A stretch of 64,000 nucleotides of DNA from Alphaproteobacteria bacterium (lineage in GTDB: Bacteria; Pseudomonadota; Alphaproteobacteria; SMXP01), in NCBI GenBank assembly GCA_028285305.1, contig JANQPV010000011.1:38339-102338 (forward strand). The letters are read 5' to 3'. The notes under the pieces were generated by a model. The model searched no databases. It was not told the origin of the DNA and saw only the letters and a program-made list of their open reading frames with translations. The position numbers and the translations under genes were made by a program. Positions 745 to 44,991 of the stretch are shown here, in pieces; position 1 is the first letter of the stretch; the number at the start of each line of letters is the position of its first letter.

Positions 745-1512
745 ATGGCAGATACCACGAAATCAGTACAAGACGTTGCCCTCATCGTGGGCGGTGGCCC
801 CGGCATAAGTGCGAGCTGCGCGCGTCTCTTCGCCCGTGAGGGCATGAACGTGGCTTTGGCCGCGAGAAACCCCGACAAGGAGGTGCTTATCAAGCTTGAG
901 AACGAGATCGGCGCCCGTCGGTACGCATGCGATGCGGCGGAACCGGCCTCGGTCGACGCCTTGTTTACCTCCGTCAAGGCGGAATTGGGGCCGCCCCGCC
1001 TCGTCGTGCACAATATCGACGGTCGTATGCGCGATATATTCCGCAAAGAGATTGTTGAAGCGGATCCGGCGCTCGTCAAGCAGGTCATCATGAACTCGGC
1101 CTACAGCGCCTTTCTTGTCGGCCAGGCAGCGGCGAAGTCGATGTTGGAGGCAGAATCGGAAAAGGGTGGTCACCGCGGCACCATCATCTTCACCAACGCC
1201 AGCGCGGCGTTCAAAGGCTACCCCAAGAGCGGCGCCTTTGCCATGGCGTGCCGGGCGAAATTCGGTCTGGCGGAGAGCATGGCCCGCGAGCTGATGCCGC
1301 AAGGGATCCATGTGGCCCACGTTCCGATAGACGCGGCCATTGGTTGGACTCAGGAGGACGGCAGCCGCGCCCATTGGCTCGCCGGAGAATCGGTCGACGA
1401 CAATATGGCAGACCCGGATCAAATCGCTGCGATGTACCTGCACTTACATCGCCAGCACAGGTCCACCTGGGCATTCGATGTGGTCCTTAGACCGTGGGTG
1501 GAGAATTGGTAG
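745..1512 (+). CDS. SDR family NAD(P)-dependent oxidoreductase
   Basis: N-terminal VALIVGGGPGISASCARLFAREGMNVALAARN Rossmann motif, short-chain dehydrogenase length and layout. Confidence 0.8.
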   Translation: MADTTKSVQDVALIVGGGPGISASCARLFAREGMNVALAARNPDKEVLIKLENEIGARRYACDAAEPASVDALFTSVKAELGPPRLVVHNIDGRMRDIFRKEIVEADPALVKQVIMNSAYSAFLVGQAAAKSMLEAESEKGGHRGTIIFTNASAAFKGYPKSGAFAMACRAKFGLAESMARELMPQGIHVAHVPIDAAIGWTQEDGSRAHWLAGESVDDNMADPDQIAAMYLHLHRQHRSTWAFDVVLRPWVENW

Positions 1513-1608
1513 GGGGCCTTGGTCGCAGTCACACCTCACATAAAGACCCTCGCGTAAAGCAGGGGAATGCCCATTCTGTGCTGAGAGTACTCCCACCCCA
1601 TCGCATTT

Positions 1609-1643
1609 CCCTGGCAAGCGGACAAAGTCCGCGCTGACCAGGG
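1609..1643. repeat. palindromic intergenic repeat, copy 1 (CCCTGG-CAA-GCGGAC-AAA-GTCCGC-GCTGA-CCAGGG)
   Basis: Two nested inverted repeats; second copy at 7056-7090 differs with a compensatory change in the outer stem. Confidence 0.8.
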
Positions 1644-1735
1644 ATCTACTTGGATGTGCAAGGATTGGACTCATTCGCTCAGGTCTGGAACCCTCGCCAA
1701 GCATGAGGACGCCTTAGCAGCGCCTCCGAAACCAG

Positions 1736-3139
1736 CTAGTTGCTCGCTTCCTGACGCAGCACGGAGAGCAAGCCTTTCGAAACATAACCGTCCGCAGGCA
1801 GCCCTTTGTCCTTTTGATAGAGTCTTACTGCCGCGCGGGTTTGTGCGCCCAGGACGCCGTCGACTTCACCGGAATCATAATTGAGGCTGTTAAGAAGACG
1901 CTGCAGTTCCTCGCGTTCGGATTTGTTAAGCGGCTGTTCACCGCGTGGCCATTGGCCTGAAAACGCCGAGCCGCCCCCAATCCGCTCAGCAAGATGACCA
2001 ACCGCTATCGCGTAAGATGTCGAGTTGTTGTACTTCATGATCGAACGGAAATTATTGAAAATGATAAAGGCAGGGCCCTTGTGTCCGGCTGGGATCAGCA
2101 GTGATCCCGAGCGCGTCGCATACTGATTGAGCGGCGTATAGATATTTCCTTGGACGCCTAACTTTTCCCATTGGGCGACGGTGCGCACGATCGTCCTTTG
2201 TGCGAGCGAATAGTCAAAGTTAACTGGCAGCGTCACTTCCACGCCCCATTCTTCACCCTTTTTCCAGCCCGACTTGGACAAATAGTTGGCCGTCGATGCA
2301 AAGACATCGCCGAGACTGTTCCAGAGGTCTCTCCGCCCGTCTTTATTGAAATCAACGGCATAGCTTAGGTACGTTGTCGGAATAAACTGGGTATGGCCCA
2401 TCGCCCCCGCCCAAGAACCGAACAACTGTTCTTTCGTTGCATAACCATTCTGTAGTATCTTCAGGGCAGCAATCATTTGTTCCCGGCCATACTTTGTCCG
2501 GCGCCCCTGATAGCCGAGGGTGGCCAGGGCCTCGATGGCATAAATGTCGCCTTTGAACTTGCCAAAGCTGCTCTCGATGGCCCAGATCGCGAGGAGATAC
2601 TCCGATTGAACACCATAGGCTTTTTCGATTTCCGTGAAGAGAGAGCGGTTCTGTTCCTTCAACTCCCGCGCGCGGGTGATGCGGTACTCGTTCACGGCAT
2701 TATCGAGATAGTCCCAGATATGCTTGGTGAATTCCGGCTGATGAGCATTGGACTTCAGTACACCTGCATTCAGAGCAATGTCCTGAGTGGCCGTATCATA
2801 AGTGCTGCCTGAAACGCCTTGCGCCACAGCCGTAGCGCGAAACGATGTGAGCCATTCTTGAAACTCTGTTTGATCGGCGCCGCTGGCCTGTGCAGTAGTA
2901 ACCGGATCCGGCTCTTGGAGGGTGGGGGCCTCCGCTGTAGGTGTGCTCGGTACCTCTTGGGCAATAACCGGATTGTAGGACGGCCCACCCATGGACGCCG
3001 GCTCCACGACAGGCGTACAGGCCCACAAGCCCCCCGCCAGCAGCACGGGCGCGACAAGCGATCTCCCTCGCTTGAGTTCCTTGATCTCAATTGGTCCCGT
3101 CATATCGCGCCTCCCAAAAAATTCCGCACCCTTTAACAT
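1736..3139 (-). CDS. lytic murein transglycosylase (MltB-like) with C-terminal peptidoglycan-binding domain; true start may be internal
   Basis: YLLAIWAIESSFGKFKGD, GAMGHTQFIPTTYLSYAVDFNKDGRRDLWNSLGDVFASTANYL, C-terminal LNSLNYDSGEVDGVLGAQTRAAVRLYQKDKGLPADGYV. Confidence 0.9.
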   Translation of the reverse strand: MLKGAEFFGRRDMTGPIEIKELKRGRSLVAPVLLAGGLWACTPVVEPASMGGPSYNPVIAQEVPSTPTAEAPTLQEPDPVTTAQASGADQTEFQEWLTSFRATAVAQGVSGSTYDTATQDIALNAGVLKSNAHQPEFTKHIWDYLDNAVNEYRITRARELKEQNRSLFTEIEKAYGVQSEYLLAIWAIESSFGKFKGDIYAIEALATLGYQGRRTKYGREQMIAALKILQNGYATKEQLFGSWAGAMGHTQFIPTTYLSYAVDFNKDGRRDLWNSLGDVFASTANYLSKSGWKKGEEWGVEVTLPVNFDYSLAQRTIVRTVAQWEKLGVQGNIYTPLNQYATRSGSLLIPAGHKGPAFIIFNNFRSIMKYNNSTSYAIAVGHLAERIGGGSAFSGQWPRGEQPLNKSEREELQRLLNSLNYDSGEVDGVLGAQTRAAVRLYQKDKGLPADGYVSKGLLSVLRQEASN

Positions 3140-17570: not shown

Positions 17571-18152
17571 ATGCCAAAGTCTGTCGATGTTGAAGAAAAA
17601 CGGGCCGAATTTGTCCGGGCGAGCTGGGACGTCATCGCCGCCGAAGGGTTCGAGGCGGCAACCATGCGCCGCGTCGCCAGCGAGGCCGGGTGCACAACTG
17701 GGTCGCTCACGCATTATTTTGCCGACCGCCGCTCGCTATTGATCGAAGCGCTTCGCAGTGCTCACTTCCAAGCAGGTGAGCGTATGGGCAAAGTGGCAGA
17801 AGAGGGATCCCCGTTTGAAAGACTGCACGCGGTGCTCTTAGAGTCGTTGCCGCTCGATTCCGTCCGCATGCGGGAGTGGAAAGTGTGGCTCGCCTTTTGG
17901 GGCGCCTCCATCAATGATCCGGCAATCGCATCGGAAGACGCAAAACGCTATGCGGAGTGGCGTGCTCTCCTGGAAAATCTACTGACGCCCCTATCACAAG
18001 ATCCAGAGCACGAGGCCGATCTGATCATCGCGCTGGTGGACGGGCTGGGAATAGGTCTCGCCAGAGCAGGGTTCGCAGGCGCTGCCCTTAAAAGGAAACA
18101 GTCCGAGTGCGAAGCAGCTCTCAATCGATATCTGGGAAAGTTCAACGACTAG
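17571..18152 (+). CDS. TetR family transcriptional regulator
   Basis: RAEFVRASWDVIAAEGFEAATMRRVASEAGCTTGSLTHYFADRRSLLIEAL; AGGAGG Shine-Dalgarno upstream of ATG 17571. Confidence 0.94.
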   Translation: MPKSVDVEEKRAEFVRASWDVIAAEGFEAATMRRVASEAGCTTGSLTHYFADRRSLLIEALRSAHFQAGERMGKVAEEGSPFERLHAVLLESLPLDSVRMREWKVWLAFWGASINDPAIASEDAKRYAEWRALLENLLTPLSQDPEHEADLIIALVDGLGIGLARAGFAGAALKRKQSECEAALNRYLGKFND

Positions 18153-37270: not shown

Positions 37271-39247
37271 ATGCACGTAACTCACCAAAACATGGCAAAT
37301 GCCATTCGCGCGCTTGCTATGGACGCGGTCCAAGCGGCGAAGAGCGGCCATCCGGGCATGCCCATGGGAATTGCCGATGTCGCAACCGTCCTCTTCACAC
37401 AGCACCTTAAGTTCCATCCGCAGGATCCTCAGTGGCCCGACAGAGACCGGTTTGTCTTGTCTGCAGGCCATGGTTCGATGTTGCTGTATGCGGCTTTGCA
37501 CCTGCTTGGATACAAGGATTTCCCACTGGATGAACTCAAGAAGTTTCGTCAATTGGGAAGCGCCACCGCTGGGCACCCCGAATTCGGTGAAGGCGGCGGC
37601 ATAGAAACAACGACGGGGCCGCTTGGGCAGGGACTCGCCACAGCTGTTGGGATGGCTCTGGCGGAACAATTAATGACCTCGCGATTTGGCAGCGACCTGT
37701 TCGATCACCACACCTACGTCATTGCCAGTGATGGCGATCTGATGGAGGGGATCAGCCATGAAGCGATAGCCCTCGCCGGCCACTTGAATTTATCGAAGTT
37801 GATCGTGCTTTTTGATGACAACGGCATCACTATCGATGGTCCTTTATCTCTTTCGGACTCCACTGATCAGCTTAAGCGGTTTGAAGCGTCCGGCTGGTCG
37901 GTCACTTCCATTTCCGGCCACGATCCATCATCGATTGGCGACGCGATCACTGCCGCAAAAAGCCAAGACCGTCCGAGCCTCATCGCCTGCAAAACCACCA
38001 TCGGCTTCGGCTCACCAAACAAATCAGGCAAGGCCTCGTCACACGGTGCGCCTCTTGGACCGGAAGAAGTCGAACTCGTAAGACAAGAACTAAACTGGCC
38101 GTTCCAAGCCTTTGATATCCCTGAAGATATTCGCAACGCGTGGCGCAGCTCAGGCGAACGTTCAAAGCATGCGTATGATAACTGGGCGGACAACTTTTCC
38201 GCTCTGGCCCCTGAGCAGCGGGCAGAATTGGAAAGGGTGCTCACTGGAAAACTGCCGCCGGACTTTAAGAGCCGGATGGAAGAGTGCATCGCGTCGTTAG
38301 CAGATGAGGCACCCAAGATTGCGACGCGGGCGGCATCTCAAAAAGTTCTCGAGGTGGTCAACGGCGCGGTGCCGGAAACCATCGGCGGTTCCGCTGACCT
38401 CACGGGCTCCAACAACACCAATACCAGTCAAACCCCGGTTGTGAATAAGAACGATTTCACAGGCCGTTTCATTCACTTCGGTATTCGCGAGCACGCCATG
38501 GCGGCGGCCATGAATGGCATGGCCCTGCATGGAGGTCTTATACCTTACAGCGGCACCTTTTTGGTGTTCAGCGATTATTGCCGCCCCGCCATTCGGCTAT
38601 CGGCCCTCATGAAACAAAGGGTCATCTACGTGATGACTCACGATTCCATTGGACTAGGCGAAGACGGACCGACCCACCAGCCGGTCGAGCATCTGGCGGC
38701 ATTGCGTGCCATACCCAACCTCAATGTGTTCCGCCCCGCCGATGCGGTCGAAACGGCGGAATGCTGGCAGATCGCCCTTGAGGCTCAAACGACACCAAGC
38801 GTGATTGCGTTGTCGCGCCAAGCCCTTGAACCGGTCAGAGTGCGTCCGGAGCAACAGAACCTCAGCAGTTTTGGGGCTTATGAGGCGCGGCCCTCCACGA
38901 GCGAAGCCAAAGTCAGCTTGTTCGCCACAGGCTCTGAAGTCGCAATCGCACTCAAGGCGAGCGACCTCCTCGAAGGAGAAGGGATCGCAACTCGTGTGGT
39001 GTCCATGCCCTGCTGGGAACTCTTCGAGCAACAGTCTGCTAACTACCGCCAATCTATACTTGGCGCGTCTTCGGTACGAATCGGCGTCGAAGCGGCCGTA
39101 TCTATGGGCTGGGAACGCTATCTTGGCACGGAAGGTGGATTCATCGGCATGACAGGGTTCGGGGCCAGCGCGCCCTACCAGGACGCCTATGATCACTTTG
39201 GCATTACACCCGAAGCAGTCGCTCAAGCCGCCCGAGCGCGCTTGTAA
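37271..39247 (+). CDS. tkt: transketolase
   Basis: [71 protein letters not shown]. Confidence 0.98.
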
Positions 39248-39298
39248 ATTGGACGAACGCCGCTATAAAGGCGCCAAATCGAATTAAGGAGAGTAGAT

Positions 39299-40306
39299 AT
39301 GGCAGTTCGCGTAGCGATCAACGGATTTGGCCGCATTGGAAGGCTGGTCCTTCGCGGGATCGTAGAATCAGGTCGCAAGGACTTAGAGGTTGTTGGCATC
39401 AACGATCTCGGCTCGGTCGAAGCGAACGCGCATCTTCTCCAATACGACACTGTGCACGGACGGTTCCCGCAAGACGTAAGCTCCGATGAAGGGTCCTTGG
39501 ATTTTGGGACCGGAGCCGTAAAGGTGACCGCAGAACGCGATCCCTCAAAACTACCCTGGAAAGAACTGGATGTTGATGTTGCGCTGGAATGCACGGGTAT
39601 TTTTGCGAGCAAAGAAAAGGCGTCGGCCCATTTAGAGGCCGGCGCGAAACGGGTCCTGGTTTCCGCTCCGGCGTCTGGCGCCGATTTAACGGTGGTTTAT
39701 GGCATCAACCATGACAAATTGAGCCCCGACCATACGGTCGTCTCGAACGCGTCTTGCACCACAAACTGCTTGGCGCCCGTTGCCGCAGTCCTAAACGAAA
39801 CGGTAGGCATTGAACGCGGATATATGACCACGGTGCACGCCTTTACCGGGGACCAGCCCGTTCTCGATACCCTTCACTCTGACCTGCGCCGGGCGCGGGC
39901 GGCGGCGAACAGCATCATTCCCACATCGACCGGCGCCGCCCGGGCTGTGGGGCTGGTCTTGCCCGAACTTGATGGCAAACTCGATGGGACAGCGGTTCGT
40001 GTTCCTGTCCCGAACGTTTCGATGATCGATCTCGTTTTCACACCTGGACGCTCCACAGATCCGGATGAAATCAACAAGGCCATGCGCACGGCTGCCGGGG
40101 GAAAGCTTAAGGGCGTCCTTGAAGTGACCGATGCACCGCTCGTCTCCTCCGACTTTAACCACAACCCGGCGTCTTCGTCGTTCGATACGACCCAAACGCA
40201 GGTGGTTGAGGGAAGTCTTGTTCGTGTGCTGAGTTGGTACGATAATGAATGGGGCTTCGCCAATCGGATGTCCGACACGGCTGTAGCGATCGGCAAGTTG
40301 ATATAA
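39299..40306 (+). CDS. gap: type I glyceraldehyde-3-phosphate dehydrogenase
   Basis: [29 protein letters not shown]. Confidence 0.98.
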
Positions 40307-40319
40307 GCTTGTTGCCACC

Positions 40320-41519
40320 GTGGCAGAGTTTCGCACCCTTGACGACCTAACGGACGCAACCGGCAAGACCGTCCTTGTGCGGGTGGACTTCAATGTCCCA
40401 CTCGCCGATGGCCGGGTGACGGACGCGACACGCATCGAGCGCACATTGCCCACGATTGAGCAATTGCGCAACAAAGGTGCGAAAGTCGTCCTGATGACGC
40501 ATATGGGGCGGCCCAAAGGTCAGGTCGATCCTCAGTACTCTGTTGAACAGCTGGTTCCGGAGTTGGACAAAAGACTGGGTACCGTCAAATTCGCCTCCGA
40601 TTGTGTCGGCGAGGAAGCATCCTCGGCCGTCGCGGCCCTTGCGCAAGGCGACGTGTTGATTCTTGAGAATCTTAGGTTTCACAAGGAAGAAGAGAAAAAC
40701 GGCGGGGATTTTGTGGCGGCCCTCGCGGCTCTGGGCGATATCTACGTGAACGACGCCTTCGCCACGGCCCACCGGGCCCACGCGAGCACGGAGGGCTTGG
40801 CCCACCACCTGCCTGCCTTTGCCGGACGTACGATGGAAGCCGAGCTGAACGCGCTGGGCGCAGCCTTGTCGGCGCCGAAACGGCCGGTGGCCGCAGTGGT
40901 TGGCGGCGCGAAGGTATCTTCCAAACTGGATCTGCTGAACAATCTCATCAAGAAAGTGGACCACCTCATCATCGGCGGCGGCATGGCCAACACCTTTCTC
41001 GCCGCGCAAGGAAAAAGGGTCGGGGCATCCCTGTGCGAGCATGATCTAACCGAAACGGCCACGTCGATCATGGCAGCGGCCGATGCGGAAAAGTGCGAGA
41101 TTGTGCTGCCCGAGGATGTGGTCGTTGCCCCGGAATTCAAAGCTCATAGCCCTTCGAGGGTGGTCCCCAATGATCAAGTCCAAGATGCTGATATGATCCT
41201 TGATGTGGGTCCGGCAGCCGTTGAAAAGATCGGCGCTGTCGTCGCTCAGTGTAAAACCTTTTTATGGAATGGGCCGCTTGGCGCATTTGAGTTGGAGCCT
41301 TTTGACAAGGGAACGGTTGCAGCCGCCCAAATCGTCGCTGAGGCGACCCAGGCGGGAAGCCTTACATCTGTCGCAGGCGGGGGCGACACTGTGTCTGCCC
41401 TCAATCATGCAGGCGTCGCCGACCACTTCAGCTACGTATCCACCGCTGGCGGCGCATTTTTGGAGTGGATCGAGGGAAAAGAACTGCCGGGCGTGGCTGC
41501 GCTTTCGGCACAAGCGTGA
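40320..41519 (+). CDS. pgk: phosphoglycerate kinase (GTG start)
   Basis: [52 protein letters not shown]. Confidence 0.98.
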
Positions 41520-41539
41520 CGTGCGTACAGGAGGTCGCA

Positions 41540-42586
41540 ATGACTCAACTTGAAGACATCGCCCAAAAGATGGTGGCGCCCGGCAAGGGCATATTGGCGG
41601 CCGACGAGAGCAGCGGAACGATCAAAAAGCGGTTTGACTCCATCAATGTCGAGTCGACCGAGGAAAACCGTCGTGACTACAGGGAGACCTTGTTTCGCAG
41701 TTCAGAGGCAATGAAGAACTATATCAGCGGGGTCATCCTTTTCGATGAAACGATCCGGCAAAAGGCTGCCGACGGTACGCCGTTGGTCAAGCTTATTGAG
41801 GAGACCGGTTCCATTCCCGGCATCAAGGTCGATGCCGGAGCGAAAGACTTGGCCGGGGCGCCGGGAGAAAAGGTTACGGAAGGCCTGGACGGTTTGCGCG
41901 AACGCCTAAGCGAATACTATGAGTTGGGCGCCCGATTCGCAAAATGGCGTGCGGTGATTGACATCGGACGCAGCGGAGACCGTTCTATTCCCTCCGCATA
42001 CTGCTTGAACGCCAATGCGCATGCGCTCGCAAGATATGCTGCTCTGTGCCAGGAAGCCAATATCGTTCCCATCGTCGAACCTGAGGTTCTGATGGACGGC
42101 GACCACGACGTAGACAGATGTTACGAGGTCACCGAGGCAGGTCTGAAAGCCCTGTACGCTGCTCTTTTCGAACAGAGAGTGAAATTAGAAGGGACGATCT
42201 TGAAGCCGAATATGGTCGTGTCTGGAAAACTGTGCGATCGTCAAGCGTCCGTGGATGAAGTCGCTGAAAAAACACTCACGTGCTTTGCAAGTGCGGTCCC
42301 GGCTGCGGTACCCGGCATCGTGTTTTTGTCCGGCGGCCAATCCGACGAAGAAGCAACGGCCCATCTGGATGCCATTAACAAGGCGAAAGCGGCCTCCGAT
42401 GGCCGCCATCCCTGGGGAATAAGCTTCTCCTACGGCCGTGCGCTGCAAGCGGCACCCCTCAAAGCATGGTCCGGCAAAAGCGAAAACCGGCAAGCAGCAC
42501 AAGCCGCCTTTTCACACCGTGCCCGTATGAACGGCTTGGCCGCTTTGGGCGAATGGTCTGAGGCAAGCGAGGCCGAAGCTGCCTAA
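41540..42586 (+). CDS. class I fructose-bisphosphate aldolase
   Basis: MVAPGKGILAADESSGTIKKRFDSINVESTEENRRDYRETLF; EGTILKPNMVVSG. Confidence 0.97.
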   Translation: MTQLEDIAQKMVAPGKGILAADESSGTIKKRFDSINVESTEENRRDYRETLFRSSEAMKNYISGVILFDETIRQKAADGTPLVKLIEETGSIPGIKVDAGAKDLAGAPGEKVTEGLDGLRERLSEYYELGARFAKWRAVIDIGRSGDRSIPSAYCLNANAHALARYAALCQEANIVPIVEPEVLMDGDHDVDRCYEVTEAGLKALYAALFEQRVKLEGTILKPNMVVSGKLCDRQASVDEVAEKTLTCFASAVPAAVPGIVFLSGGQSDEEATAHLDAINKAKAASDGRHPWGISFSYGRALQAAPLKAWSGKSENRQAAQAAFSHRARMNGLAALGEWSEASEAEAA

Positions 42587-44368: not shown

Positions 44369-44611
44369 TTATTCAAGCTTCGTTCGATCAAACGCTTCGG
44401 GCTCTTGGTCGGGGCCTTGATAATCTCCAATTCCGATAGAGATCGCGTAGCAAGCCAGACGCACGGTGCGCGGAACGGAAACAGGCTTTCCGTCCCGTTC
44501 GCCTTTCTCATAGTATTGGATGATGCGAGGTTTCAGGCCCAGAATTTGCGCAGCTTGTTTTTGCGACAGGCCCAAAGATTTGCGCCATCTCTTAAAGTCC
44601 TTCTTGTCCAT
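44369..44611 (-). CDS. small helix-turn-helix (XRE/Cro-type) transcriptional regulator
   Basis: FKRWRKSLGLSQKQAAQILGLKPRIIQYYEKGERDGKPVSVPRTVRLACYAI. Confidence 0.92.
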   Translation of the reverse strand: MDKKDFKRWRKSLGLSQKQAAQILGLKPRIIQYYEKGERDGKPVSVPRTVRLACYAISIGIGDYQGPDQEPEAFDRTKLE

Positions 44612-44714
44612 TTACCCAATCGGCCTTGCGTACACCTCTGAAAAACCGCGCGAACGCGCCGCTCCATAAAGCCCTGAAAACATTTCAGTTTTATGACAGT
44701 TTGGCGTTTGGTCT

Positions 44715-44798
44715 GCACGCCGTGCGCATAAATCTGCACGAAGTGCTTAAAAAAACGCACAAAGTGCATATTTTCTCTTGCCAATATGCACAAAGTGC
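44715..44798. promoter_or_regulatory. four-copy operator array GCAC-N3-GTGC
   Basis: GCACGCCGTGC 44715-44725, GCACGAAGTGC 44736-44746, GCACAAAGTGC 44757-44767, GCACAAAGTGC 44788-44798; start-to-start 21, 21, 31 bp. Confidence 0.85.
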
Positions 44799-44805
44799 GT
44801 ATAGT
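44778..44805 (+). promoter_or_regulatory. putative sigma70-type promoter TTGCCA-N16-TATAGT containing the fourth palindrome in its spacer
   Basis: TTGCCA 44778-44783, TATAGT 44800-44805; upstream of small ORF at 44836. Confidence 0.6.
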
Positions 44806-44835
44806 AGACTTATGCACAGAAAAACGGAGGCAACA

Positions 44836-44991
44836 ATGCTCAGATTTTTGGTTTACGCCCTACAGTTTGGGCTGGGAGCGCTCAGGGGATCAAAAAATCC
44901 GCACCCTTATCACGGCAATAACAGTGAGAGTGAAAAGCGCGCGTTCGAACGGTCGCGCAAGCGCAGAACGGTTTGGAAACCGGTCCGATAA
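44836..44991 (+). CDS. small basic protein (51 aa), hydrophobic N-terminus
   Basis: GGAGG Shine-Dalgarno before ATG 44836; MLRFLVYALQFGLGALRGSKNPHPYHGNNSESEKRAFERSRKRRTVWKPVR. Confidence 0.6.
   Translation: MLRFLVYALQFGLGALRGSKNPHPYHGNNSESEKRAFERSRKRRTVWKPVR

Follow-up and report, generated by a model that had tools for sequence, protein, structure and literature searches.

The locus considered here raises the question of which protein recognizes a cluster of palindromes lying between a small regulatory gene and a divergent short open reading frame (ORF), and which gene is controlled by this cluster. It is part of a 64-kb stretch of alphaproteobacterial DNA, which was analysed as a whole and is referred to as the window. 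The comparison with related loci points to an HTH protein that is very probably a dedicated local repressor of the Aca1 type, which would bind the palindrome array and silence the divergent gene of a small protein.

The palindrome array and its flanking genes

The regulatory gene (44369–44611, minus strand) encodes a predicted Aca1-like HTH_3 repressor of 80 aa (Pfam HTH_3, E=7.4e-8; further based on profile, Foldseek and orthologue comparisons) and is, as stated in the initial annotation, a Cro-type HTH gene located divergently to the small ORF. A sequence scan of the window detected GCACNNNGTGC at 44715, 44736, 44757 and 44788 with gaps of 21, 21 and 31 bp; the four copies of GCAC-N3-GTGC described between the two divergent genes are thus present with the spacings given for them. 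Palindrome 1 (GCACGCCGTGC, 44715–44725) is followed by palindrome 2 (GCACGAAGTGC, 44736–44746), palindrome 3 (GCACAAAGTGC, 44757–44767) and palindrome 4 (likewise GCACAAAGTGC, 44788–44798). Only one further copy of GCACNNNGTGC occurs in the 64-kb window, at 17825. Since 1.5 copies of GCAC-N3-GTGC are expected in 64 kb, a cluster of four in 84 bp cannot be ascribed to chance. When the genome containing the window (5.4 Mb, 95% complete) was scanned for pairs (GCACN3GTGC-N8..28-GCACN3GTGC), the array was the sole match. The strict motif TGCRCACNNNGTGCRYA had no match in this genome, and three of the four palindromes deviate from the consensus C immediately before GCAC. A literature search for the palindrome motif gave no published description.

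The fourth palindrome lies in the spacer of a sigma-70-like promoter on the plus strand (44778–44805), which consists of TTGCCA (44778–44783) and TATAGT (44800–44805) separated by 16 bp. This promoter had been predicted previously, and the promoter scan identified it as the only promoter-like match between 44300 and 45100. Downstream of it, a GGAGG ribosome-binding site (44826–44830, plus strand) precedes the gene of the 51-aa protein (44836–44991, plus strand). Both elements had been annotated before; position 44836, which had been assigned to the GGAGG sequence, is however the ATG. The genes neighbouring the module (transketolase, GAPDH, PGK, aldolase, Sel1 and inositol monophosphatase) represent a chromosomal housekeeping setting. 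Four of these genes, for transketolase, GAPDH, PGK and a class-I aldolase, are consecutive on the plus strand (window positions 37271–42586) and form a carbon-metabolism cluster beside the module.

Co-occurrence of the HTH gene and the operator motif

Orthologues of the HTH protein were detected in 30 of 386 genomes in a sampled search of the Alphaproteobacteria. A scan of named genomes revealed 80 HTH loci, many of which belong to Parvularculaceae and Rhodospirillales and one to Candidatus Phaeomarinobacter. The tree of the HTH proteins is weakly resolved, and the loci are phylogenetically related, so that counts of loci represent non-independent tests. Among the dyads counted in the upstream regions of 28 HTH orthologues, CGCA-N5-TGCG (19 loci) and GCAC-N3-GTGC (18 loci) were the most frequent, in comparison to at most 5 in shuffled sequences.

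If all sources are combined, 53 of 97 distinct HTH loci bear one to four sites with the consensus AAAtGCGCACnnnGTGCGCaTTT, some of the single sites probably being chance occurrences. This search of relatives for the array beside homologues of the HTH protein showed that gene and array travel together. The 115 sites from these 53 loci yielded a symmetric 21-bp motif, AAAtGCGCACnnnGTGCGCaTTT; only the inner bases were demanded in the search, and the symmetry beyond them emerged from the aligned sites. Pairs of GCACN3GTGC were found in few of 373 genomes of the class. Pair-pattern matches in some other genomes, which have different flanks, were set aside by eye as coding or tandem repeats.

The other 44 distinct loci, mostly of Parvularculaceae, are devoid of canonical sites, and many of them adjoin tmRNA. 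A search for a second operator in these mostly tmRNA-linked loci gave no clear candidate, as the dyads found were mainly tmRNA sequences. At L062, L070, L077 and other loci of Parvularculaceae, the HTH orthologue and the permuted tmRNA gene are divergent, an SspB-like gene lies on the far side of the latter, and the array is absent.

The initial annotation had further claimed that all sites face the same side of the helix. Among 60 neighbour spacings in relatives, 32 were 30–32 bp long, 31–32 bp being the most frequent distance, and 27 and 34 bp were also common. Half of them (30/60) deviated by no more than 1 bp from whole helical turns, versus 24% expected under uniform spacing. Judged from these sequences, helical phasing is a tendency and not a rule; the preference for whole turns stands, whereas strict phasing is not conserved. 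Because a distance of 31 bp places the -35 hexamer in the gap, this spacing is accounted for equally by promoter geometry and by helical phase.

Promoter geometry and proposed mechanism

Promoters around the sites were scored on both strands as pairs of TTGACA and TATAAT with the -10 hexamer just past the palindrome and a threshold of at least 9/12. A sigma-70 promoter wrapping a site was found on the strand of the divergent gene at 28 of 53 loci and on the strand of the HTH gene at 5 of 53; on this latter strand, sigma-70 signals around the sites are weak. Shuffled flanks gave only 2.1±1.4 such promoters (maximum 6), so that roughly every second relative has an operator within the promoter of its divergent gene, as in the window.

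These results bear on the simplest alternative, namely that the array only autoregulates the HTH gene and that the small ORF is incidental. All sites are indeed also located upstream of the HTH gene, and autorepression of this gene is possible. As the sole function of the array it is, however, highly improbable, as the wrapped promoters lead away from the HTH gene at 28 loci and toward it at 5, and the small ORF is under selection (see below). Furthermore, one genome (G068) possesses an HTH gene without sites and, on a separate contig, a three-site array ahead of a gene of the second small-protein type (type B, see below). This arrangement indicates that the operator is separable from the HTH gene and tied to the small gene.

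Repression of the 51-aa gene by the HTH protein, as proposed initially, is well supported by co-occurrence, by the recurrence of the operator within the promoter and by selection on the coding sequence. This comparative support extends neither to the cooperative binding nor to the membrane association of the small protein that had been suggested initially. One dimer of the HTH protein would bind each GCAC-N3-GTGC palindrome. With the site between the -35 and -10 hexamers occupied, RNA polymerase would be excluded from the small-gene promoter; site 4 would consequently be the critical operator, and the other palindromes would add occupancy. Once repression is lifted, the 51-aa protein would be made. 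Binding of the HTH protein, repression, an inducing condition and an activity of the small protein are what we infer from the sequences; the comparative basis of this model, including promoter geometry and the relation to Aca1, is well supported.

The divergent small proteins

The 51-aa protein belongs to a group designated type A (50–57 aa), whose genes are divergent from the HTH gene in the genus of the window, in a second genus of the same family (G003; E=1.3e-14 to the 51-aa ORF), as well as in Candidatus Phaeomarinobacter and bacteria related to it. For four close relatives, codon analysis yielded dN/dS values of 0.05–0.27, and 27 of 50 substitutions between the genes of the window and G003 affect third positions. 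These codon-level data identify the 51-aa ORF as coding, conserved and under purifying selection. Matches to it outside the two lineages were weak (E 0.0007–0.98) and were treated as chance.

At 25 other loci, 21 of which have distinct HTH sequences, the divergent gene encodes a protein of type B, which consists of one domain of roughly 80 aa and is shorter in some cases; sites are present at all of these loci. Of 360 genomes, 6 were found to encode type B, and each of these is HTH-positive. Marivibrio halodurans and Insolitispirillum peregrinum are culturable species with a type B locus. Its structure was predicted confidently (pLDDT 94), and the fold search retrieved no match (best E=2.7 in the PDB and 0.30 among viral models). 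Representatives of both types had no family match in Pfam, NCBIfam, PHROGs or PADLOC. The remaining loci possess other small ORFs divergent from the HTH gene. The small protein downstream of the operator differs by lineage, with at least types A and B. A gene judged by eye to be FecR-domain-like comes after that of type B at L055, L057, L059, L071, L094 and L115.

Relationship to Aca1 and other HTH regulators

When a profile of the HTH family was compared to the PDB, Aca1 (7c0g; E=3.6e-4) was matched after NE0471 (E=4.6e-6); the single HTH sequence of the window matched Aca1 with E=7e-4. The sequence similarity to Aca1 is low (37% over 43 residues). A Foldseek search with the AlphaFold model (pLDDT 81) listed NE0471 at rank 1 and Aca1 at ranks 2–5, as well as Aca2 and Aca10. 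The Aca1 matches are modest (E about 0.006–0.015, TM 0.58–0.62 by query; top matches 0.005–0.02), and scores in a similar range were reached by NE0471, a Listeria regulator and MqsA, which are likewise small HTH proteins. Residue R29, which is invariant across the HTH family, aligns with R44 of Aca1, a residue important for DNA binding; a literature search for an R44A mutant of Aca1 gave nothing.

The published operator of Aca1, ACAAGCGGCACACTGTGCC...AGGCACAATGTGCC, contains GCACACTGTGC and GCACAATGTGC and has the core seen in the window, and the operators given there for Aca2 and Aca10 differ (PMC9410881). Promoters regulated by Aca proteins are reported always to have one of their inverted repeats within the core promoter (PMC9410906). 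The system of Aca1 (anti-CRISPR-associated protein 1), a repressor of anti-CRISPR genes from Pseudomonas phage JBD30, resembles the module in the window in several respects: a small single-domain HTH repressor in which the equivalent of R44 is invariant, an operator core of GCAC-N3-GTGC, and a small-protein gene whose core promoter encloses an inverted repeat between -35 and -10. Sequence and predicted fold place the HTH protein close to Aca1, and the operator cores are equal; the homology is distant and of a degree common to other HTH families. The module, which had been called unrecognized, is hence recognizable in part, namely in its repressor and operator core.

Toxin-antitoxin systems offer a second comparison, in which the small protein would be toxic and the HTH protein, as a member of an MqsA-like class, its repressor or antitoxin. 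Like the window protein, MqsA possesses an HTH_3-class domain, located at its C-terminus, and it binds AACCT-N3-AGGTT, in which the half-sites are likewise 3 bp apart (PMC4894380); in addition, the small size and basic character of the 51-aa protein are in line with this reading. The window protein also resembles the MqsA family model (TIGR03830, E=5e-7), but its 29.5 bits are below the cut-off of 61.8, and the Pfam model MqsA was below its cut-off as well. It is an 80-aa single domain lacking the zinc-binding N-terminal domain of MqsA, and its operator arms, GCAC instead of AACCT, agree with Aca1 and not with MqsA. Membership in MqsRA was rejected on the basis of the sub-threshold model and the lack of an adjacent MqsR toxin. 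A toxin-antitoxin-like pair is altogether rather unlikely, as the two genes are divergent instead of forming an operon, the small proteins match neither toxin-antitoxin families nor PADLOC, and type B is predicted to be a folded domain of 80 aa.

The likeness to Aca1 also suggests an anti-CRISPR or anti-defence cassette, in which the small proteins would be Acr-like inhibitors and the HTH protein an Aca repressor domesticated from a phage. The identical operator core and the variation of orphan small proteins by lineage under a constant repressor are in line with this, as is the viral contig L185 (IMGVR_UViG_3300033997_000507). In its region 2220–2713, two operators were found, one of them between TTGCGA and TATAAA; this promoter is followed on the same strand by a TTG-started ORF of 30 codons and an Aca1-like HTH gene, which by its sequence is an operon-type, Aca-like version of the module. 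In acr-aca systems, the genes form a same-strand operon with aca downstream, whereas the HTH gene and the small gene of the window are divergent; aca1 is a gene of phages and mobile elements, whereas the window gene is chromosomal. Loci of the window type also usually contain two to four operators, unlike the Aca1 system, and their small proteins, unlike the targets of Aca1, had no match among the families of the libraries searched. A function against CRISPR is unlikely, because most hosts lack cas1 (detected in 5 of 27 genomes with the HTH gene, but not in the window genome), because neither type A nor type B was matched among 50,697 phage records, and because the neighbouring genes are housekeeping genes; the purifying selection on the small gene likewise argues against it. 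Other roles in conflict are conceivable. Solo Aca proteins (PMC9410906), encoded distant from known acr genes, are comparable to the HTH protein, but are mostly larger and often without operators, whereas in the window a small protein is combined with a conserved operator array and a defined divergent target.

The preferred reading, a local Aca1-type repressor of the divergent small gene, connects a chromosomal regulator and operator system, which has a small-protein target of its own, with the best-studied repressor of anti-CRISPR genes. More tentatively, the loci may represent a widespread alphaproteobacterial switch, in which interchangeable small orphan effectors (type A of about 50 aa, type B of about 80 aa, and others) are under the control of one conserved Aca1-like repressor and operator cassette, possibly in phage-host conflict or stress response; Aca1 would then be a phage-borne branch of a family of chromosomal regulators. 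This raises the question whether Aca1 was taken by phages from such a host switch, or whether an old phage switch was kept by the hosts. In either case, such loci could mislead attempts to find anti-CRISPR genes through their Aca-like neighbours. The layout of operator and promoter can also serve as a predictor, which finds small genes otherwise missed by annotation.

Additional elements and putative further targets

Beside the array, a tentative Pho-box-like element, CTGTCATAAAACTGAAAT, is directed toward the HTH gene (44682–44699, minus strand). It scored 16/18 against the Pho box consensus used, a value equalled in none of 200 shuffles, and similar elements recur at type A loci, among them the relatives L023, L024 and L056. 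This suggests phosphate control of the HTH gene and is regarded as a lead only, because most of the type A loci with the element are closely related. At loci of the Phaeomarinobacter group, similar elements, weaker in L002, are located between the operators and the small gene.

Further palindrome pairs were also detected. A second pair with a distance of 20 bp occurs in G127 (L177, contig C18, sites 1210 and 1230) and has a counterpart in G229 (contig C162). The pair of L177 is situated downstream in sequence of, and divergently close to, a YtoQ-like gene (1293–1754, minus strand), which is a possible extra target. G382 harbours two extra pairs off its HTH locus, one close to an ORF encoding about 144 aa (L174) and one near a response-regulator-like gene (L175).
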